64,000 nucleotides of DNA. It comes from Chloroflexota bacterium (GTDB taxonomy: Bacteria > Chloroflexota > Dehalococcoidia > Tepidiformales > Tepidiformaceae). This document shows positions 26,973-38,798 of the stretch, one piece after another. The stretch is taken from positions 1 to 64,000 of the forward strand of contig JACRBT010000002.1 of assembly GCA_016234445.1 (NCBI GenBank), read 5' to 3'. The notes beneath the pieces were generated by a model. The model was not told the origin of the DNA, made no database searches, and worked only from the letters and a program-made list of their open reading frames with translations. A program made the position numbers and the translations under genes. Each line of letters begins with the position of its first letter. Positions within the stretch are counted from its first letter, which is position 1.

Positions 26973-27059
26973 GCTACGACAGCCGCCCGAGATCGGCGCC
27001 GAGCCCGGGCCGTGGCTCGGGGTGATTGTGGGGGCGGGCTGAGGCGCTTTCGCGGGGGC

Positions 27060-27098
27060 TTGACAGGTGTGGTATACAGGATAGGGGGGTATCCTATT
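27060..27098 (+). promoter_or_regulatory. copA control region with CsoR-like G-tract palindrome
   Basis: TTGACA at 27060-27065 (possible -35) is followed by GGATA-GGGGGG-TATCC at 27079-27094, a palindrome around a G tract with GTATAC just upstream. CsoR-type copper repressors bind similar ATAC...GGGGTAT sites. The -10 box could not be placed confidently. Confidence 0.5.
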
Positions 27099-27124
27099 TA
27101 GACCCACACAGGGAGATGGCTCGA

Positions 27125-29316
<2,192 letters not shown>

Positions 29317-29320
<4 letters not shown>

Positions 29321-29523
29321 GAGACGACGACCTTGCCTACGTGGCGTTCGCGGCCTTCTTCCTGGTCTGCACGGTGGTGGCGGTGGGCTTCGTGCTGATC
29401 GCATGGCTGGGCCTGGCGTTCGGGCTTGCCTGGATAGCCGCTGTTGCGCCGTTCGCCGTCTTCTTGCTCATCCTGCTCCGGCGCTACAGCGCGCCCGGGC
29501 GGGGGCGGGGGCCGGGGAGATGA
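29317..29523 (+). CDS. Small two-helix membrane protein
   Basis: 68 residues: a short acidic N-terminus MRDDDL, two adjacent hydrophobic helices spanning about 8-55, and a basic tail (RRYSAPGRGRGPGR). The start overlaps the copA stop by 4 bp, so it is translationally coupled to the ATPase and may be an accessory subunit. No family recognised. Confidence 0.7.
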
Positions 29524-29588
29524 AGGCGGGCCGCCGAGACCATACCGATGACAACTACGACGTAGCAGCTTCCAAGGAGGTACAGATC

Positions 29589-30002
29589 ATGCCTAAACGG
29601 GATCGAATCGTCCGGATTGGGGTCGTTGCCGCGGTTACGGGGTTGCTGGCCCTGGCGGCGGCTTGCGGTGGAAGCCCGGGCGCCGGCTCCACGCCGCAGG
29701 TGCAATCGAAGCCCACGGGCGCCAGCGCCGCATCGGCGACGCCCGCACACACCGATCACGCCGCCGTGATCGACCAGCTGGACATGGCGTTCAAGCCGGC
29801 GCGAGTGTCGATCAAGGTTGGCCAGACGGTGCTGATCAAGAACAGCGAGGCGCCTATCCACACCGGCAACATCAACGGGAAAAACATCACCGGCAACATG
29901 AAGAAGGGCGACAGCACCGCCTGGACCGCCACTGCGCCCGGCGAATACAAGGTTACTTGCGACTACCACCCGCAGATGAGCGCGACGATCGTCGTGTCGT
30001 AG
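29589..30002 (+). CDS. Plastocyanin-like blue-copper lipoprotein
   Basis: 137 residues from ATG 29589, with a strong AAGGAGG upstream. A signal peptide ends in lipobox LAAAC (Cys about 28), giving a lipid-anchored extracytoplasmic protein. The cupredoxin domain covers about 60-137. The type 1 copper ligands are visible: His in EAPIHTGN, then Cys, His and Met in VTCDYHPQM. It probably carries copper or electrons at the outer face of the membrane. ACTACGAC at 29554-29561 upstream is a left half of the BlaI operator pattern without a matching right half. It is followed 26 bp later by the Lgt-like gene. Confidence 0.9.
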   Translation: MPKRDRIVRIGVVAAVTGLLALAAACGGSPGAGSTPQVQSKPTGASAASATPAHTDHAAVIDQLDMAFKPARVSIKVGQTVLIKNSEAPIHTGNINGKNITGNMKKGDSTAWTATAPGEYKVTCDYHPQMSATIVVS

Positions 30003-30028
30003 GGTTCGCCGAAAGGAAGGCGCAAAGC

Positions 30029-30877
30029 GTGCTACAAGTCCTACCGTCCGCAGCCCGTCCCTTCGCCGCGATTACGGTCGACATCGACCCGGCGCTGCTT
30101 CGCGTCGGCCATCTTCACATCGGCTGGTACGGGATCGCCGTGGCGTTGGCGATCGCCGCGGGACTACTCGTCGCCCGCCGCGAAGCGAGGAGACGCCAGC
30201 TCGACCCGGACGCGGTCCTGGCAGTGGGCGGCTGGGCGGTGGCAGGGGGACTGGTGGGCGCACGGCTGCTCTTCGTGGTCGACCACTGGTCGAGGTTCCG
30301 TGGAAGCCCACTCGACGTCATCGCTTTCCAGGAAGGCGGCCTTGCGATCCAGGGGGCCGTGATCGGGGGGCTGGTGGCCGGCGGGCTCTACGCAAGGCAC
30401 GCCCGCCTCCCTGTACTCGCGTTCGCGGATGCCGCGGCCCCGGCGGTCATTCTCGGCCAGGCCATTGGCCGGTTCGGTTGCCTTGTGACGGGAGATGCGC
30501 TCGGCGCGCCGACGTCGCTTCCCTGGGGCGTGCGCTACGTGAATCCAGCAGCCATGGCGCCGCAACTCGGAGTGCCGTTCCAGCCGGTCTTCGCCTACGA
30601 GGCGCTGTTCGACGTCGCAGTGTTCGCGCTTCTCTGGACCATCCGGAAGCGCGTCACCCGGCCCGGGCGCCTTTTCGCCCTGTACCTGGGGCTTTACGCG
30701 ATTGGCAAGTTCGGGGTCACGTTCCTGAGGCAGGAGCGCACCTGGGCCTGGGGGATGCAGGAGGCGCAATTCCTGGCGCTCGCTCTCCTTGCGGGGGCGG
30801 TGGCGTTCTGGGCCCTCGGCCTCCTGCGAAACATGGGTCCGGCCGCCGCCAGGGCCGCTGTCGGGTCAGAAGGGTGA
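30029..30877 (+). CDS. Divergent prolipoprotein diacylglyceryl transferase (Lgt-like)
   Basis: 282 residues from GTG 30029 (GGAAGG upstream). Seven hydrophobic segments. The family signature is present in altered form: GQAIGRFGCLVTGDALG where canonical Lgt has GRxGNFxNGE, and GGLAIQGAVIGG where it has a conserved His. The invariant Arg remains, but the Asn, Glu and His positions are changed. Lgt attaches diacylglycerol to the lipobox Cys of lipoproteins. Placed directly after a cupredoxin lipoprotein, it may serve the island's lipoproteins, or it may have a changed activity. Its housekeeping counterpart is presumably elsewhere. Confidence 0.8.
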   Translation: MLQVLPSAARPFAAITVDIDPALLRVGHLHIGWYGIAVALAIAAGLLVARREARRRQLDPDAVLAVGGWAVAGGLVGARLLFVVDHWSRFRGSPLDVIAFQEGGLAIQGAVIGGLVAGGLYARHARLPVLAFADAAAPAVILGQAIGRFGCLVTGDALGAPTSLPWGVRYVNPAAMAPQLGVPFQPVFAYEALFDVAVFALLWTIRKRVTRPGRLFALYLGLYAIGKFGVTFLRQERTWAWGMQEAQFLALALLAGAVAFWALGLLRNMGPAAARAAVGSEG

Positions 30878-31034
30878 TGCGGGATGGAAACGAACGCCAA
30901 CCGGGCCAATGGTCCGCCACCCGCTCAAGAGCCCCGGGCGTGGCGGGCGACCGCGGCATGCGGGCTCTCAGCGACTACGACTCTGGTTGTCACACATGGC
31001 CGGTGTTGCCGGCTCAAGTAAGGAGCGCGAACCG

Positions 31035-31178
31035 ATGAAGAGAGATCCTGTCTGTGGCATGACGATCGCCGAGAAGGACGCCGTTGGAACCGCTGTCCAC
31101 CAGGGGGTGACGTACTACTTCTGCTCGGAGGGCTGCCGGAGGCGGTTTGCCGCCGATCCCGCGGAGTTCGTGAAGTGA
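31035..31178 (+). CDS. Stand-alone YHS metal-binding protein
   Basis: 47 residues, only a YHS domain: KRDPVCGMTIAEKDAVG, then VTYYFCSEGCRRRFA. YHS domains bind copper or other soft metals through their cysteines and deliver them to ATPases or enzymes. ATG 31035 has AAGGAG upstream. The stop overlaps the GTG of the first ABC permease. This makes it the lead gene of a four-gene operon ending in an ABC ATPase that carries the same domain. A degenerate half-operator (ACTACGAC, 30974-30981) lies upstream. Confidence 0.85.
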   Translation: MKRDPVCGMTIAEKDAVGTAVHQGVTYYFCSEGCRRRFAADPAEFVK

Positions 31179-32326
31179 CAGGCGTGGCGGGGGCGGTGCC
31201 GTTCCGGTCCGCGGCCTCGGCGCTGCGGCTGGGGATGCGCAACCTGTTCCAGGACAGGCTGAGGTTCGCCCTCAGCGTGGCCGGGGTGGGCCTCTCGCTG
31301 ATGCTCGTGCTGTTCATGCTCGGCATCCGCGCGGGCGCTCTCCGAAGCGCGGTCGTCTACCTCGACAACGCCCCTGGGACCGTCGAGGTGCTTCCGCCGG
31401 GCGGTCGCAGCACCGCCGCGGGCTCGGCGCAGTTCCTCGGTCCCGAGACGGTGGCGGCGGTCGCCGGCACCCCCGGCGTGGAGGCGGTCACGCCTGTCCT
31501 GCTGACGATGGGCTTCTCCGACCTCCATGGCACGAAAGCCGTCATCAAGCTTGTCGGCTATGACGCGGCGCTCGGTGGCGGGCCCTGGAAGCTTGCGAGC
31601 GGCCGCGTCCCGGCAGCCGATGGCGAAGTGGTGCTCGACCGGGTGTTGGCCAACCGCCACGGGCTGGGGATGGGCGATGCCTTCGAGATCGGCGGCATCC
31701 AGCTGACGATCGTCGGGCTCTCTAACGAGACGAGCTCCTGGACCGGGAGCTATGCCTTCGTCCGCAAGGGCATGGTCGAAGCGCTGCTCCTCGCGCCCGG
31801 GGCCGCCAGCTTCGTGCTGGTCACACCGGAGCCGGGGACGTCGCGGGACGAACTGATGGCGCGGCTGCGGGCGATCGACGGCACCAACGTGCTGCTCAAG
31901 AGCGATGTGATGGCAAACGACCAGGAGGTGGTGGCCGGGATCTTCGACCAGGTAATTCTCCTCATGGTTGGGGCGGCGTTTGTTGTCGGCGCTCTCGTTG
32001 TCGGGATGGTGATCTACACCGCGACGAACGAGCGCCGGGCGGAGTACGGGATCCTCAAGGCGATCGGGGCGCGAAACGCCGTGCTCTACCGGGTTGTGGC
32101 CTGCCAGGCGCTGGTCGCCGCTGGGGTGGGGTCCGTGGTCGGGGTTGGCTTCTCCTACGCGATGGGCTGGGTGGTGATGAACGCGCGGCCCCAGTTCCTC
32201 GTGGTCATCGAGCCACCTGCGATCGGCGCGACCCTGGCAGCCGGGGTCGTGATGGCCCTGGCCGGGGGCCTCTTCCCGGCGCGGGCGGCCGCCCGCCTTG
32301 AACCGGCCGAAGTCTTCCGGAGGTAG
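31175..32326 (+). CDS. FtsX/MacB-type ABC transporter permease 1
   Basis: 383 residues from GTG 31175, overlapping the YHS gene stop. One N-terminal helix (about 25-50), a large extracytoplasmic domain (50-260) and three C-terminal helices give the MacB/LolC-FtsX topology. The cytoplasmic motif YGILKAIGARNAVLYRVV and the ending ARLEPAEVFRR are typical coupling segments. Such permeases do not move solutes through the bilayer; they pull lipoproteins or other extracytoplasmic substrates mechanically. It partners with the permease at 32332 and the ATPase at 33447. Confidence 0.88.
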   Translation: MTGVAGAVPFRSAASALRLGMRNLFQDRLRFALSVAGVGLSLMLVLFMLGIRAGALRSAVVYLDNAPGTVEVLPPGGRSTAAGSAQFLGPETVAAVAGTPGVEAVTPVLLTMGFSDLHGTKAVIKLVGYDAALGGGPWKLASGRVPAADGEVVLDRVLANRHGLGMGDAFEIGGIQLTIVGLSNETSSWTGSYAFVRKGMVEALLLAPGAASFVLVTPEPGTSRDELMARLRAIDGTNVLLKSDVMANDQEVVAGIFDQVILLMVGAAFVVGALVVGMVIYTATNERRAEYGILKAIGARNAVLYRVVACQALVAAGVGSVVGVGFSYAMGWVVMNARPQFLVVIEPPAIGATLAAGVVMALAGGLFPARAAARLEPAEVFRR

Positions 32327-32331
32327 ATGCC

Positions 32332-33444
32332 GTGTTTCGCCTCGCACTCGGCAACCTGACCCAGAACAAGGCACGGCTCCTCTTTTCCGTGGGGGGCACC
32401 GGACTGGCGCTCACGCTGGTGCTCTTCTTTGGAGCGGTCTTCGCTGGCGCGAGCAGCCGGCTCACGGTCTACATCGACAACGCCGGGGCCGACGTGTGGG
32501 TGTCCCAGGAGGGCGTCCGGACGATGCACATGTCCTCGTCGGCACTGCCCGCCTCGGTAGCGGACGAAGTAGAGAGCGTGCCCGGAGTCGAGCAAGTCGT
32601 GCCAATCCTCTACGCCGAAGACATGGTGGAGGCGGCTGGCAAGCAGTACATCACCTACGTCTTTGGGGTGCCAGAGGGCGCCCCGATGGGCAGCCCCTGG
32701 CGGATCGTGGAAGGCTCGGCGGCGCTCGCCCCGGGTGAAGTGATCATCGACCGTGCGATCGCAACGCAAGCGGGAGTTGGCGTCGGCGACGGCCTGATGG
32801 TGCTGGGCCAGGAGATGCGGATCACGGGCCTCACGGCCGGGACATCGAGCCTCGCCAGTTCCGTCGCCTTCGTTCGAATGGAGGACTTCGAACGGGTCCG
32901 GGGCGAAGGCAGTGTCATCAGCTTTGTGCTGGTGAAGGTCGAACCAGGGGAGTCCGCGGCGGCCGTCTCCAGCCGGATCGCCGGGTCCGTTGGCGGGGTC
33001 ACCGTGCAGACGCGCGACGACTTCAGATCGCAAGAACGGCGGCTGGTGAAGGACATGAGCGCGGACCTCATCAACATCATGAACATCGCCGGCTACCTGA
33101 CCGGCCTTGCCGTCGTCGCGCTCACCGTCTACACGGCGACCATCGCCCGCCGCAGGGAGTACGGCCTGCTGAAGGCGATCGGTGTCCGCAACAGCAGGCT
33201 CTACCAGGTGGTGCTCGTCCAGGCGCTGCTCAGCGTGGCGATGGGGTTCGTGACCGGGCTCGCGATCACCCTGCTGCTGACGGCGGTCATCCCCCGTTTC
33301 AACGAGTTGATCGTGCTCTCGCTTGGGGTGGCGCCTGTGCTTCGCGTCGCCGGCGTCTCGGTTGTGCTGGCCGGCGTCGCGGCGCTGCTCCCGGCGCGGC
33401 AGATTGCGGGGCTCGAACCCGTCGCCATCATCCGGAGGAGGTAG
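32332..33444 (+). CDS. FtsX/MacB-type ABC transporter permease 2
   Basis: 370 residues, GTG start. Same topology as the preceding gene: helix about 17-40, an extracytoplasmic domain, then three helices from about 245. Coupling motif YGLLKAIGVRNSRLYQVV and the ending IAGLEPVAIIRRR. It is clearly a paralogue of permease 1, so the transporter is a heterodimer as in LolCE or DevC-like systems. Intergenic gaps are 5 bp upstream and 2 bp downstream, indicating tight operon coupling with the ATPase gene. Confidence 0.88.
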   Translation: MFRLALGNLTQNKARLLFSVGGTGLALTLVLFFGAVFAGASSRLTVYIDNAGADVWVSQEGVRTMHMSSSALPASVADEVESVPGVEQVVPILYAEDMVEAAGKQYITYVFGVPEGAPMGSPWRIVEGSAALAPGEVIIDRAIATQAGVGVGDGLMVLGQEMRITGLTAGTSSLASSVAFVRMEDFERVRGEGSVISFVLVKVEPGESAAAVSSRIAGSVGGVTVQTRDDFRSQERRLVKDMSADLINIMNIAGYLTGLAVVALTVYTATIARRREYGLLKAIGVRNSRLYQVVLVQALLSVAMGFVTGLAITLLLTAVIPRFNELIVLSLGVAPVLRVAGVSVVLAGVAALLPARQIAGLEPVAIIRRR

Positions 33445-33446
33445 CC

Positions 33447-34268
33447 ATGACTGAAGCAGGCCTGCGGGTCGACCACGTAACGAAGCGCTTCGGGTCGGCA
33501 GACACCGAGGTAGTCGCGGTGAGGGATGTCTCTCTCCAGGTGAAGCCGGGCGAGGTCGTGCTGATCATGGGCCCGTCGGGCTCGGGGAAGACGACGCTGC
33601 TGCTGATGCTGGGGGCTCTTCTGAAGCCGACGGAAGGCACGATTGCGCTCGGGGACCTTGAGCTCAGCGCCATGTCCGAGGGCAAGCTGCCGGATATCCG
33701 GCTACGGCACTTCGGCTTCATCTTCCAGGATTTCAACCTGCTTTCGGCCCTCAGCGTGCAGGACAACGTCGCCTTCGCGGCCGAACTCACCGGGGTGAGC
33801 CGCGGAGTCGCCCGGAGCAAGGCAGCGGCGCTGTTGACGGAACTCGGCCTCGACCATCGCCTGCGCTTCCCGCCGGAGAAGCTCTCTGGCGGTGAAAAGC
33901 AACGCGTGGCGATCGCCCGGGCGTTGGTCAACGACCCTGCACTGATCCTCGCGGACGAGCCAACCGCGAACCTCGACTCAAGCCACGGCCGCGAGACGAT
34001 GCGCCTCCTCCGCGAAATCGCTCAGAAGCGTGGCCGGAGCGTCGTCATCGTTTCGCATGACACCCGGATCAAGGAGATCGCCGACCGCGTCCTCTGGTTG
34101 GAAGACGGGGAGTTCACGAACGCTGTTGAAATGGCGACCGACCCGGTCTGCGGGATGGCGGTCGAACGAGACGTCGCCATCGCCGGTGACCGCGACGGGC
34201 AGACGTACTACTTCTGCGCGAGGGGATGCCGCGACGAATTCCTTGCCGGGGTGGCTGGGCCTCCATAA
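33447..34268 (+). CDS. ABC transporter ATPase fused to a C-terminal YHS domain
   Basis: 273 residues. Residues 1-225 form a LolD/MacB-type ATPase: Walker A GPSGSGKTTL near 43, Q-loop FIFQDFNLL, signature LSGGEKQRVAIARAL near 150 and Walker B LILADEPTANLD. A YHS domain follows at about 228-268 (ATDPVCGMAVERD, then TYYFCARGCRDEF). I do not know this fusion as a described family. The YHS domain could sense or bind the metal on the cytoplasmic side and gate ATP hydrolysis, or hand metal over. It completes the YHS-permease-permease-ATPase operon and is convergent with the M56 protease gene. Confidence 0.9.
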   Translation: MTEAGLRVDHVTKRFGSADTEVVAVRDVSLQVKPGEVVLIMGPSGSGKTTLLLMLGALLKPTEGTIALGDLELSAMSEGKLPDIRLRHFGFIFQDFNLLSALSVQDNVAFAAELTGVSRGVARSKAAALLTELGLDHRLRFPPEKLSGGEKQRVAIARALVNDPALILADEPTANLDSSHGRETMRLLREIAQKRGRSVVIVSHDTRIKEIADRVLWLEDGEFTNAVEMATDPVCGMAVERDVAIAGDRDGQTYYFCARGCRDEFLAGVAGPP

Positions 34269-34296
34269 GGCGTGTGCCGCAGGGTGGGCGGCGCGG

Positions 34297-35112
34297 CTAC
34301 ATCATGTAGTGCGTGGTGCAATAGGCGGCGAGGAGCGCGGTGGCGTGTGCGAGGCCTGCGGGGAGAGCGGCGGCGGCGGCCAGGACAAGGAGACTCTTCG
34401 TGGGAGGTCCAGGCAACGGGGTTTCCGGGTGGACCAGCCGCAAGAGCCGTAGCTCGACGCTCGCATCGGTGAGGCCCGCCGCGAGGATGGCCGGCGAGGG
34501 GCTGGCCGCCGCCACGATCGCTTCGAAAAGGTCGCGGCGATTGGCGCCATTGCGGATGGCGTAGTCGTCCGCCCTGCATTCGGTCCGGAGGGTCTCGGTT
34601 TCAACCGCGAGGCGGACCCAGGGCACAAAGGCGAACCCCCGGCCAACAGCCGTGAGGATGAGCCGCCAAAGGATGTCCCGCCGGCGGGCGTGGGACTGTT
34701 CGTGGAGCAAGGCCGCCCGGAACTGTTCGGGGCGCAGCGAGCGCTCGGCCCCCGTGCTCGCGAAGGCGACCGGTCGAAAGACGCCGGCCGTGAATATGAC
34801 CACCCCGTCCGACGGGAAGCGCCTGTACCGAAGGTCGCCAAGTTGGGCCGGCTGGCTACCTTGAAAGAGTTCCCGGGCGTGGTCACGGCCACGTTCTGCG
34901 CGGAGGAGCGAGAGGAGGAAGCCTGCTGTCGGGAGGGCGGAGATGAGCGCCATCGTCACGAGGCCAAATACGCGCGGATGCCGGATTTCTGCTGACAGGT
35001 CCGACCACCCGGCCGCATAGAGGTGGGTGGCCGCCGGGTGCAGCGCCAGCAGGGGCCCCAGGATGAGGATCAGCCCGAGGGTGACGAGTGCCAGCTGGCT
35101 CCCCCTGGTCAC
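34297..35112 (-). CDS. M56-family (BlaR1-like) membrane metalloprotease
   Basis: 271 residues from GTG 35112, whose start overlaps the blaI stop (GTGA). Membrane helices near 8-25, 48-70, 105-118 and 225-265. The zinc-protease motif is LLHEQSHARRRD (HExxH at 137-141), with a distal Glu in ETLRTECRADDYAI. Members cleave a partner repressor of the BlaI family on sensing an outside signal. There is no penicillin-binding sensor domain, so the signal is not a beta-lactam bound there; a metal or redox cue is likely given the neighbourhood. Confidence 0.88.
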   Translation of the reverse strand: MTRGSQLALVTLGLILILGPLLALHPAATHLYAAGWSDLSAEIRHPRVFGLVTMALISALPTAGFLLSLLRAERGRDHARELFQGSQPAQLGDLRYRRFPSDGVVIFTAGVFRPVAFASTGAERSLRPEQFRAALLHEQSHARRRDILWRLILTAVGRGFAFVPWVRLAVETETLRTECRADDYAIRNGANRRDLFEAIVAAASPSPAILAAGLTDASVELRLLRLVHPETPLPGPPTKSLLVLAAAAALPAGLAHATALLAAYCTTHYMM

Positions 35113-35519
35113 GGCTCGGCTCCCTCCAGCTGGCTCCGGAGCATGGCGACGAATGCGGGGTCGAGCCGCTTCGCCTCCGTGAGGAAGGCGGAAAGCCCGG
35201 CGCCGCTGAGTTCGACCATCGCCCCCGCCAGGACGTGGCCGCGGCGTTGGGAGAACTGGTCGCGGGTGACGGCCGGCGAGTAGATGTGCGCTTTTCCTTC
35301 GCCCCGGCGAGCAACGAGTCCCTTGCGATGGAGCCGTTGGAGGACGGTGAGGATTGTCGTGTAGGCGAGGTTCCGCGGCTTGCCCACCTGTTCGTAGACC
35401 GCGGGGGTGCTCAGTTCGCCGCACTCCCAGAGGGCGGAGAGCACTGTCGCCTCAAGCTCGCCGACCGACGCGGCCCCAACCGCCTGGTTGCCGTCGTTCA
35501 TCGTGTCATCGTAAGGCAT
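35109..35519 (-). CDS. blaI: BlaI/MecI/CopY-family repressor
   Basis: 136 residues from ATG 35519 (AGGAGA six bases upstream). The winged HTH spans about 15-85: GELEATVLSALWECGELST, then NLAYTTILTVLQRLHRKGLVARR. A C-terminal dimerisation region follows. BlaI proteins bind TAC...GTA dyads and are inactivated by proteolysis by their M56 partner, encoded next door and translationally coupled. Operator O2 lies 90 bp upstream between this gene and the divergent lipoprotein gene, so it should be autoregulated. The same dyad in front of three more units makes this the likely master regulator of the island. Confidence 0.92.
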   Translation of the reverse strand: MPYDDTMNDGNQAVGAASVGELEATVLSALWECGELSTPAVYEQVGKPRNLAYTTILTVLQRLHRKGLVARRGEGKAHIYSPAVTRDQFSQRRGHVLAGAMVELSGAGLSAFLTEAKRLDPAFVAMLRSQLEGAEP

Positions 35520-35608
35520 CGAACGTCTCCTGGGCTTGGGCCTGTTAGTCCCCGGAAGAGGGGCCACCTGGCCGTCTCGTCCGGGGACATCGTCGCGGAC
35601 ACTTCCAT

Positions 35609-35632
35609 GGTAGTACGACGGCAGGTAGTAAT
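35609..35632 (+). promoter_or_regulatory. BlaI-type operator O2
   Basis: GGTAGTACGACGGCAGGTAGTAAT: TACGAC at 35614-35619, six bases, TAGTAAT at 35626-35632. It ends 3 bp before the ATG of the lipoprotein gene and controls the blaI-M56 side as well. Confidence 0.85.
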
Positions 35633-35635
35633 CCA

Positions 35636-36127
35636 ATGAGGCAGAGCCATCCTTCGAATCCGCCAGCTTCAGCGAGGCCGCGAAAGCCGCGGCGGGCGTT
35701 CGGCCTGGCTGCGGGGGCACTGCTTGCGCTGGCGGTGCTGCTGGCGAGTTGCTCCGGGCCGGGCGAGGACGGACAGGCGAAGTCTGCCGGGGGCGGCAAG
35801 CGCAGTTCGGACGCGGGGAGCGTGACCCTGGACATAACCTGGGAAGGCCAGGACTCGGGCCTCGTCTTCACGGTGCAGATGGACACACACGCGGTCGACC
35901 TGGACGGGTTCGATCTCAAGGAACTCGCCGTGCTTCGGACGGACGAGGGCGTGGAGGTGTCACCGGCATCGTGGGAGTCCCCGGCCGGCGGACATCACCG
36001 GGAGGGGACGCTGACCTTCCCGGCAGTCGTCGATGGGCGCCCCGTGCTGGGAGAGGCCACGCGGGGCGTCACCGTGGTCGTCCGCGACGTCGCCGCCCCG
36101 GAGAGGAGCTTCCGGTGGACGTGGTGA
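35636..36127 (+). CDS. Lipoprotein of unknown function
   Basis: 163 residues. Basic N-terminus, hydrophobic stretch and lipobox LLASC (Cys about 40) mark a lipoprotein. The mature part is a compact beta-rich domain (VTLDITWEGQDSGLVFTVQM near 62-81) with HAVDLDGFDLKEL and GGHHREGTLTFPAV; the HH pair may bind metal. No family recognised. Operator O2 directly precedes the start codon and no Shine-Dalgarno site is present, so the message may be leaderless. The next gene overlaps by 13 bp. Confidence 0.8.
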   Translation: MRQSHPSNPPASARPRKPRRAFGLAAGALLALAVLLASCSGPGEDGQAKSAGGGKRSSDAGSVTLDITWEGQDSGLVFTVQMDTHAVDLDGFDLKELAVLRTDEGVEVSPASWESPAGGHHREGTLTFPAVVDGRPVLGEATRGVTVVVRDVAAPERSFRWTW

Positions 36128-36606
36128 TCGGCGGCCGGCGGGCAGCGGCCCACGGGCGGGACTGGTTGATGCCTGTCTGCGGGGGGCTGGTGGCAGGGAC
36201 CGCACTCCTGAGCCTGTATCTGGGGATCATTACCCTCGCCCAGGACTGGGACCACGCCCGGGAACAGCTCGGGGCCGACCGGTGGTTCGTCGCCGGGATC
36301 ACCGGGGGGTTCGGCACGCAAGCCGGGCTCTTCGTCTATCTCCGGTCGCTCCACGCGCGGACGAACCCCGGCGCGATGGCGGCGAGCACGGGCACCAGCA
36401 CGGCGGCGATGGTCGCCTGTTGCGCACACCACGTGGCCGATGCCCTCCCGCTGATCGGGCTGTCGGGCGCGGCCATGTTCCTCAATGACTACAGGGAACC
36501 GATTCTCTGGTCCGGGATCGCGATGAACGGCCTGGGGATCGGCTACTTGCTCTTGAAGATCACGAGGGAGCGGTCGCGGTTCAGAGGATGGGGGATGCCA
36601 GCATGA
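36115..36606 (+). CDS. Four-helix membrane protein with CCxHH motif
   Basis: 163 residues from GTG 36115 (GGAG upstream), overlapping the lipoprotein gene. Hydrophobic segments are near 18-40, 60-75, 95-120 and 130-150. The third contains MVACCAHHVADALPLIG: two cysteines and two histidines within a helix, a likely metal or redox site. I recall related sequences in thermophile metal-resistance loci but cannot name a family. It is paired with the preceding lipoprotein in one BlaI-controlled operon. Confidence 0.75.
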   Translation: MDVVIGGRRAAAHGRDWLMPVCGGLVAGTALLSLYLGIITLAQDWDHAREQLGADRWFVAGITGGFGTQAGLFVYLRSLHARTNPGAMAASTGTSTAAMVACCAHHVADALPLIGLSGAAMFLNDYREPILWSGIAMNGLGIGYLLLKITRERSRFRGWGMPA

Positions 36607-36772: not shown

Positions 36773-37093
36773 ATGGCGAGGATCCGAGATGTCCTTTCGC
36801 CCGGGATTGGTTCCTATGCCACGGTGCCAGCTGGCCTGGGGACAATTGCGGCCCGGTTCCAGGCGAACAGCGACGGGCACATGGACTGGGGGGACGGCGG
36901 TTTCGTCGTGATGTGGATCACGATGGCCGTGTTCTGGTTCGGCGTCCTCGCCCTCGGCGCCTGGGGCGTCGCCACCTACGCGAAGAGGGGCGGGGAAGCG
37001 GGGCCATCGGCGCTGGAGATTGCCAGGGCGCGCTACGCCCGCGGCGAAATCACGGCGGAAGAGTTCGAACAGATCAAGCAGGGGCTGCGCTGA
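36773..37093 (+). CDS. Membrane protein with C-terminal SHOCT domain
   Basis: 106 residues. One transmembrane helix near 45-70 (VMWITMAVFWFGVLALGAWG), preceded by a short outside part with DGHMDWGDGG. A SHOCT helix-loop-helix domain follows at the C-terminus (LEIARARYARGEITAEEFEQI). SHOCT domains are short oligomerisation modules often found on copper- and stress-related membrane proteins. GAGGAG lies upstream of the ATG. First gene of a three-gene unit under operator O3 that ends at the terminator 38174-38194. Confidence 0.85.
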   Translation: MARIRDVLSPGIGSYATVPAGLGTIAARFQANSDGHMDWGDGGFVVMWITMAVFWFGVLALGAWGVATYAKRGGEAGPSALEIARARYARGEITAEEFEQIKQGLR

Positions 37094-37146: not shown

Positions 37147-37581
37147 ATGACGACAGCGCGGAAGGTTGCCGTAGCGGGCGTCGTCGCGGCGGTGCTGCTG
37201 GGAGGCGCCGCCCTCGGCTTCTTCGTGGGAGACGGTTCTTCGGGGGCCACCAGGAGCGACAAGGAACACACGATCGACCTCGGCACACAGCCACCCGACG
37301 TGGTCGCCGCCTATCGCTACATCGAAAGCCACCCGGAGATGGCGAGCCGGATCCCGTGCTACTGCGGCTGTGGGAAGTCGCTCGGGCACCAGTCCCTGCT
37401 CGACTGCTACGTGATCGTCCCCGGGACATACAGCGACCACGCCTCGGTCTGCCTCATCTGCGGGAGGGAGGCGGCCGACCTGGAGCGGCTTGCCGCGGAG
37501 GGACAGGAACTCAGCGCGATTCGCGCATGGATCGACGGCGAGTACTCCCCGTACGGGCCACCCACGAACACACGAGAGTGA
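37147..37581 (+). CDS. PCYCGC-motif exported protein
   Basis: 144 residues from ATG 37147, chosen for its strong GGAGG six bases upstream; ATG 37093 overlaps the previous stop and would add 18 residues. An N-terminal signal-anchor helix (VAVAGVVAAVLLGGAALGFF) precedes the family motif IPCYCGCGKSLGHQSLLDCYV near 75, with two more cysteines in SVCLICGREA. PCYCGC-type proteins are small exported proteins of unknown function; the Cys cluster suggests metal or thiol-redox activity. It precedes the selenoprotein gene by 7 bp, so the two are likely partners. Confidence 0.87.
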   Translation: MTTARKVAVAGVVAAVLLGGAALGFFVGDGSSGATRSDKEHTIDLGTQPPDVVAAYRYIESHPEMASRIPCYCGCGKSLGHQSLLDCYVIVPGTYSDHASVCLICGREAADLERLAAEGQELSAIRAWIDGEYSPYGPPTNTRE

Positions 37582-37588
37582 GGATGCG

Positions 37589-38143
37589 ATGAGCCAATCG
37601 AGGTCCCGCGGGGGGAAGGCGCCACGGCCACCGCAGCGGCGGGCGAGGGTCACCCTGCCGGTCGTGGTGATCAGCGGGGCGGTCGCGCTTTTCGCTTTCG
37701 CGGTTGGGATGCAGATCTGGAATTCCACGAGAGGCGAGGGAAATGGTGGCGGGGCCGAGGCCGCGAGCGCGAAGTCTCATTCGCTCCCCGACGGCGCCAT
37801 CCAGGTCGCGGGCGTGGAGGTGCTGGCGCCGGTTGCCGATGCCGGCCGGGTGCCGCTCAACACCGGTGTCGAAAAGCAGTGGATGCTGAAAAACACGGGG
37901 ACCGGCCCGGTGACGCTCGGGAGGGCAACGATCAAAGTCCTGGAGGGTTGCTGACCGGCCGACCCGGTCGTGGGTGCCACGACGATCGAGCCGGGCGGAG
38001 AAGTGCCCGTGACGCTTTCGCTGCCGATGGGCATGCATGCCGGGATGGATGGGCCGCACCTGTTCCGGATCAACGTCCCGGTCAAGAACGCCGCCGGCGA
38101 GTCGGGGGATGTCGAGCTCTACTTCAAGGCGATGTTCCGCTGA
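37589..38143 (+). CDS. Selenoprotein with Cys-Sec motif, exported DUF1573-like domain
   Basis: 184 codons if the in-frame TGA at 37952-37954 is read as selenocysteine (residue 122). Without recoding the frame stops after KVLEGC. The continuation (PADPVVGATTIEPGGEVPVTL... to FKAMFR) is a normal domain ending at TGA 38141. Order: basic N-terminus, transmembrane or signal helix near 22-42, then an Ig-like domain beginning about 70. Relatives of this type carry VLEGCCPP, so Sec replaces the second Cys. MGMHAGMDGPHLF adds Met/His ligands. A hairpin 12 nt past the UGA fits a bacterial SECIS. It is last in the O3 operon. Alternative: a nonsense-mutated gene, which I consider less likely. Confidence 0.85.
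37967..37983 (+). promoter_or_regulatory. Bacterial SECIS-like hairpin, selenoprotein 1
   Basis: GTCGTGG-GTG-CCACGAC, a perfect 7-bp stem with a small loop starting with G. The loop begins 20 nt after the UGA, within the spacing used by bacterial SECIS elements for SelB binding. Confidence 0.7.
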
Positions 38144-38173: not shown

Positions 38174-38194
38174 GCCGCCCGCGGGGCGGCTTTT
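38174..38194 (+). terminator. Rho-independent terminator
   Basis: GCCGCCC-GCG-GGGCGGC followed by TTTT, 31 bp after the selenoprotein stop. It closes the O3 operon. Confidence 0.85.
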
Positions 38195-38303: not shown

Positions 38304-38798
38304 ATGAAGCGCTTCTTTCTTTCGCTCGCCGTTGCAGGGGCCCTGTTCGGGGCCGTGGCAGTGACCGCGGCCTGTGGCGGAGACGGGGACTCAGGCGGCA
38401 TGGGGGACATGGGCGGCATGGGCGGCGGCATGACGAACGCCAGCCAGCCCGCCGGGTCCATCAGGGTCGGTCTCGTGAACTGGGAAGTGGAACCGGCCCA
38501 GTCCGAGGCCAAGGCCGGCACGGTGACGTTCTGGGCCGTCCACGACATGGACCACGGGCACATGAGTTCCGACGGCGGCGTCACCCACGACCTCCAGGTG
38601 ATGAAGAAGAACGCTGACGGCAGCCTGCAACTCGTTGGGCAGGTGCAGGGGCTGACCATGGGCCAGGCGAAGGAGCTGACGCTGACCCTAGCCCCGGGCG
38701 ACTACGAGCTCTCCTGCAACGTGGTCGAGCAGGTCGACGGGAAGGTGGTCGGGCACTACGCGAAGGGGATGCGGGCGCCGTTCAAGGTCACCGCATAG
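38304..38798 (+). CDS. Sulfocyanin-like blue-copper lipoprotein
   Basis: 164 residues from ATG 38304 (CGGAGGA upstream). A signal peptide ends at lipobox VTAAC. A Met/Gly-rich stretch (GGMGDMGGMGGGM, residues about 31-45) looks like a Met-only copper site. The cupredoxin domain then shows ligands His in GVTHDLQV and Cys/His/Met in LSCNVVEQVDGK...HYAKGM. The long loop between Cys and His is typical of sulfocyanin-type proteins. Likely role: extracytoplasmic copper binding or electron transfer. Controlled by operator O4, monocistronic. Confidence 0.88.
   Translation: MKRFFLSLAVAGALFGAVAVTAACGGDGDSGGMGDMGGMGGGMTNASQPAGSIRVGLVNWEVEPAQSEAKAGTVTFWAVHDMDHGHMSSDGGVTHDLQVMKKNADGSLQLVGQVQGLTMGQAKELTLTLAPGDYELSCNVVEQVDGKVVGHYAKGMRAPFKVTA

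Follow-up and report, generated by a model that had tools for sequence, protein, structure and literature searches.

Does the TGA codon that interrupts a DUF1573-like reading frame in a genome of the Chloroflexota family Tepidiformaceae specify selenocysteine (Sec), or does it end the protein? The frame lies within the 64,000-nucleotide stretch analysed here, hereafter the window (Table 1). It comprises an ATG start and 121 codons, the TGA, 62 further sense codons and a TGA stop at 38141-38143, and the motif around the internal TGA is EGC-U-PADP. The GC content by codon position after the TGA (0.69/0.45/0.89) retains the coding pattern seen upstream of it (0.67/0.56/0.83), bearing out the sequence-only reading, which had noted a single TGA directly after a Cys and a continuation of normal composition. 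As that reading also foresaw, a standard ORF caller terminated the frame at Cys121. The clean stop that it described is present; the terminator placed after it corresponds to a GC-rich hairpin followed by TTTT, seen by eye at 38174-38194, where a terminator scanner made no call.

Table 1. Features of the window related to the predicted selenoprotein gene.
Feature	Coordinates	Strand	Basis
Predicted selenoprotein gene (184 residues, counting Sec122); N-terminal membrane anchor followed by an exported, DUF1573-related Ig-like domain	37589..38143	+	Translation, homologue alignments, model
In-frame TGA, predicted to be read as Sec122, directly 3' of Cys121	37952..37954	+	Same-site TGA shared by 26 further genomes; tandem paralogue L019 has Cys
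bSECIS hairpin with GUG apical loop on a stem of 7 bp; spacing from the UGA 19 nt	37967..37983	+	Conservation, covariation, RNAalifold, published criteria (PMC13188914)
PCYCGC / CYCXC-family exported protein (Cys form), conserved neighbour 7 bp upstream	37147..37581	+	PF13798 67.9 bits; NF041379 (OS_HP4) 68.5 bits, below cut-off 90; neighbour in other loci
Small SHOCT-domain membrane protein encoded upstream	36773..37093	+	PF09851 36.9 bits; also near L025, L028
Cupredoxin-like exported lipoprotein, Met-rich N terminus, downstream	38304..38798	+	PF13473 20.5 bits, below cut-off 27; homologue adjoins the gene in L025, L028, L029
Copper P-type ATPase (CopA type) with YHS domain	27026..29320	+	TIGR01511 597.9 bits, cut-off 397; PF04945
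Cupredoxin-domain protein	29403..30002	+	PF13473 36.6 bits
BlaI/CopY-type repressor	35109..35720	-	PF03965 76.6 bits; CopY_TcrY 32.5 bits, below cut-off

Taken alone, the data from a single genome, together with the halt of the ORF caller, are compatible with the TGA being an ordinary stop or a sequencing or assembly error, leaving a 121-residue truncated product or a pseudogene. The homologues argue against this. Six genomes of the same order, including the source, carry TGA copies of the gene, and when 400 Chloroflexota genomes were searched with a profile, 21 more had TGA-bearing matches, so that the codon occurs at the same place in 27 genomes (26 besides the source) from 11 family-level groups. 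The common motif of these copies is (G/S)C-TGA-P, mostly Gly-Cys-TGA-Pro. Downstream of the TGA, dN/dS is 0.03-0.25 within two groups, indicating purifying selection, and residues M91, M95, G97 and H99 (exported-fragment numbering) are invariant among 17 diverse sequences. An intact tandem paralogue (L019), the only intact Cys homologue found, has TGT (Cys) in the TGA column and the motif GCCP, which agrees with the earlier proposal that Sec occupies the second Cys of a CCP motif. An ordinary stop or an error is thus extremely improbable.

A second GCCP copy, frameshifted, is located upstream of the Sec gene in genome G018. The Cys-form tandem paralogue is directly 5' of the Sec-form gene both in G015 (L077 / G015:C135), where it is intact, and in G018 (L075 / G018:C23). 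Extra frameshifted or partial copies were observed in f33 genomes (L122, G149:C1:4125000-4125800; L121, G042:C1:3108500-3109300), with L122 still carrying the TGA and hairpin. A broader profile (A4), applied to the 400 genomes, revealed no extra TGA-bearing genome and no further Cys-type (GCCP) homologue; its non-TGA matches were at or beside CGC-type DUF1573 proteins (G165, G220, G228) or were partial or frameshifted pieces (G042, G149, G305), with one more match in G335. Chloroflexota was the only phylum sampled in depth, and every hit of one wider contig scan was a MAG with the label Dehalococcoidia, Anaerolinea or Chloroflexi/Chloroflexota. Comparison of L047 with plasmid records gave no match.

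Decoding of UGA as Sec in bacteria is associated with a downstream bSECIS hairpin, for which a loop of 3-9 nt, a stem of 4-16 bp, a G in the first two loop positions, a spacing of 16-37 nt and an MFE of at most -7.5 kcal/mol have been specified (PMC13188914). The hairpin in the window, formed by 37967-37973 and 37977-37983 with the loop GTG at 37974-37976 (-24.6 kcal/mol), falls within every one of these constraints, including spacing and the G[G/U] loop, as expected from the 7-bp hairpin with a G-starting loop at the usual SECIS distance that had been described from the sequence alone. Since 5.8% of the window's TGA triplets have a hairpin that fits the bacterial SECIS model with a stem of 7 bp or more, this single hairpin is weak evidence and was not relied on by itself. 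Its conservation and covariation across genomes, however, exceed chance. In the homologues examined, the 7-bp stem is in register, starting 12 nt after the UGA and enclosing a 3-nt loop, and the loop begins with GU in 32 of 33 sequences. Among 29 distinct sequences, 97% of cells are paired versus 78% in shuffles, and pairing does not exceed 70% when the partner is slid along. The covariation score is 0.645, which none of 500 shuffles reached, versus 0.281 for shuffles, and compensatory two-sided changes occur in five of the seven stem pairs. RNAalifold, unaided, recovered the same stem with six of its seven pairs. The hairpin codons +5 to +8 show zero synonymous variation in 12 f33 sequences, the mean elsewhere being 0.44. 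In the Cys paralogue L019 six of eight positions are unpaired and the hairpin is lost.

The genome of the source organism contains the genes necessary for Sec incorporation, for which the sequence-only reading had recommended a search: selA (540.8 bits), selB (317.5 bits) and selD (360.7 bits), each above its curated cut-off, and tRNA-Sec (selC; 66.9 bits), classified by ARAGORN as tRNA-SeC with anticodon tca. The selD gene itself has the usual in-frame TGA, in the motif GGUASKAGP, and thus represents a second, textbook selenoprotein gene in this genome. All 27 TGA-bearing genomes contain selA and/or tRNA-Sec: tRNA-Sec is present in 23 of the 26 other than the source, the remaining three (G158, G166, G294) have selA, and the two with no selA match (G066, G305) both have tRNA-Sec. 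This co-occurrence is supportive rather than decisive, because as many as 321 of the 400 Chloroflexota genomes carry selA, and it was not retained as strong evidence. In G002, where neither selA nor tRNA-Sec gave a match, only the C-terminal third of the gene is left, next to a cupredoxin-like gene (G002:C19:86766-86903; L015, L124); the locus looks like decay following loss of the Sec system.

The same data bear on programmed readthrough, in which an ordinary amino acid would be inserted with the aid of the UGAC context and the hairpin. TGAC is a leaky stop context and is found in all sequences, and the hairpin is conserved. On the other hand, the replacement in the paralogue is Cys rather than Trp or Arg, the hairpin has the properties of a bSECIS element and is gone in the Cys copy, Sec genes accompany every TGA copy, and only a remnant is left in G002. 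Readthrough of this kind is therefore very unlikely, and the in-frame TGA is almost certainly read as selenocysteine. UGA122 would be decoded by SelB and tRNA-Sec, directed by the downstream hairpin, and the product is predicted to be an exported selenoprotein, about 184 residues long and anchored in the membrane.

The confident structure model of the exported domain (mean pLDDT 89) gives this membrane-anchored, Ig-like, DUF1573-related protein an Ig/PapD/ASH-like beta sandwich and not a thioredoxin fold. Matches in Foldseek and VIA reflect only this common fold, carry no functional information and were set aside; a sequence search of the PDB gave no meaningful match. The description "DUF1573-like" is appropriate in a wide sense, given the Ig/PapD-like fold and two relatives that exceed the PF07610 gathering cut-off of 26.1 bits (L047, 39.0; L054, 33.6), while the window protein itself, at 12.2 bits, remains below it.

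A DUF1573 selenoprotein, OS_HP2, has already been described, with the motif UGC (PMC9312934, PMC13188914) or UxC (PMC2398784), and the protein could be a plain member of that family. It shares with OS_HP2 a DUF1573-type domain and Sec at a conserved Cys site; besides the distant homology of L047 and L054 to PF07610, these relatives weakly match NF041425, the OS_HP2 model (28.8 bits for L047, the best relative, and 18.1 for L054). The cut-off of that model is, however, 100 bits, a value exceeded nowhere in the 400 Chloroflexota genomes, and the window protein is absent from its matches. The motif is GCU-P, not the UGC of OS_HP2 with Sec at the first Cys of CGC; when CGC-type DUF1573 proteins are aligned with the family, the U column coincides with the second Cys of their CGC or adjoins that Cys. 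A conserved MHxGMxGxH block further separates the two, and the GCU family was seen in Chloroflexota only, the sole phylum sampled in depth. No GCU DUF1573 entry occurs in the 119-entry 2026 selenoprotein catalogue, no matching family in NCBIfam 20.0, and no Chloroflexota selenoprotein of this kind was found in the open-licence papers searched. The motif, the low NF041425 score and the absence from the catalogue indicate a new subfamily; plain membership of OS_HP2 is improbable, and the selenoprotein assignment taken together with the new-subfamily reading is very likely correct. Since OS_HP2 was known, the "new selenoprotein" of the sequence-only reading is new in its subfamily and in the position of Sec, not as a selenoprotein in DUF1573 as such.

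Adjacent Cys-Sec ("CU") pairs are also present in SaoL, SaoC, HgcA, MbdU and KCU-star (PMC13188914), several of them involved in metal or mercury handling; these are other families by name and model, whereas here the pair would be carried by an exported Ig-like domain. A different DUF1573-like frame in G166 (L123; G166:C226:500-1300) contains GGC-T-TGA (C-x-Sec), followed at an equal distance by a GTT-loop hairpin; this single example is possibly another Sec variant of DUF1573.

The gene is preceded, at the distance reported earlier, by a PCYCGC gene. Such a gene lies near most copies of the Sec gene, with 11 genomes besides this one showing it; for L058, L062, L066, L067, L072, L074 and L077 none was found within the stretch searched. 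It is a Cys-form relative of OS_HP4 / CYCXC (PF13798, NF041379), a protein separate from the one described here, and this neighbour carries no Sec. No established function of PCYCGC was found in the literature. Homologues of CopA are encoded near L028, L029, L067 and L073 (three family-level groups), and across the phylum the recurrent neighbours are cupredoxin/COX2, cytochrome c and NapH-like 4Fe-4S proteins. The copper-linked region 27026-36606 of the window contains, in addition to the CopA-type ATPase, the cupredoxin-domain protein and the BlaI/CopY repressor of Table 1, MacB-like permeases, an ABC ATPase fused to YHS, an M56 peptidase accompanying the repressor, and an ACCAHH-motif membrane protein that exceeds the cut-off of no family.

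The Cys-Sec pair, the conserved Met and His residues and the copper-related neighbours make copper binding or copper-site redox chemistry in the envelope the best guess for the function, and a copper-linked role, suggested by gene neighbourhood and the conserved Met/His, has somewhat less than an even chance of being right. The Ig-like domain would present the vicinal Cys121-Sec122 pair, to which the Met and His of MHxGMxGxH may be close, and together with the neighbouring PCYCGC protein it could act on copper or another soft metal in the envelope, in one of two ways: Cu(I) binding by selenolate, thiolate, Met and His ligands, or maintenance of the Cu-site cysteines of cupredoxin/CuA-type proteins in the reduced state. 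The most specific version is rather unlikely as a whole: Sec would ligate a soft metal (Cu(I)) within an exported, non-thioredoxin Ig-fold copper chaperone that works with PCYCGC, in a Chloroflexota family almost never replacing Sec by Cys. Alternatively, the selenoprotein may act in thiol redox during cytochrome or CuA-oxidase maturation, the Cys-Sec pair reducing PCYCGC or the cysteines of CuA/heme sites without binding metal. Redox activity is attributed to most selenoproteins (PMC13188914), and several families have cupredoxin/COX2-like, cytochrome c, NapH-like 4Fe-4S and CcmF proteins encoded next to the gene. Such a role is a serious though doubtful candidate, given that the model is Ig/PapD-like with no thioredoxin fold, that the neighbours in the window are CopA, YHS and CopY-like proteins, and that conserved Met/His besides Cys-Sec would suit a soft-metal site.

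Overall, the gene, which standard ORF calling cuts at the TGA, adds a selenoprotein subfamily for which neither the current catalogue nor the NCBIfam models showed an entry. Nearly all members found retain Sec, which suggests that sulfur would be a poor substitute for selenium in this protein. The frequent neighbours provide a concrete and testable link from selenium to copper or cytochrome handling within the cell envelope of the little-studied phylum Chloroflexota.
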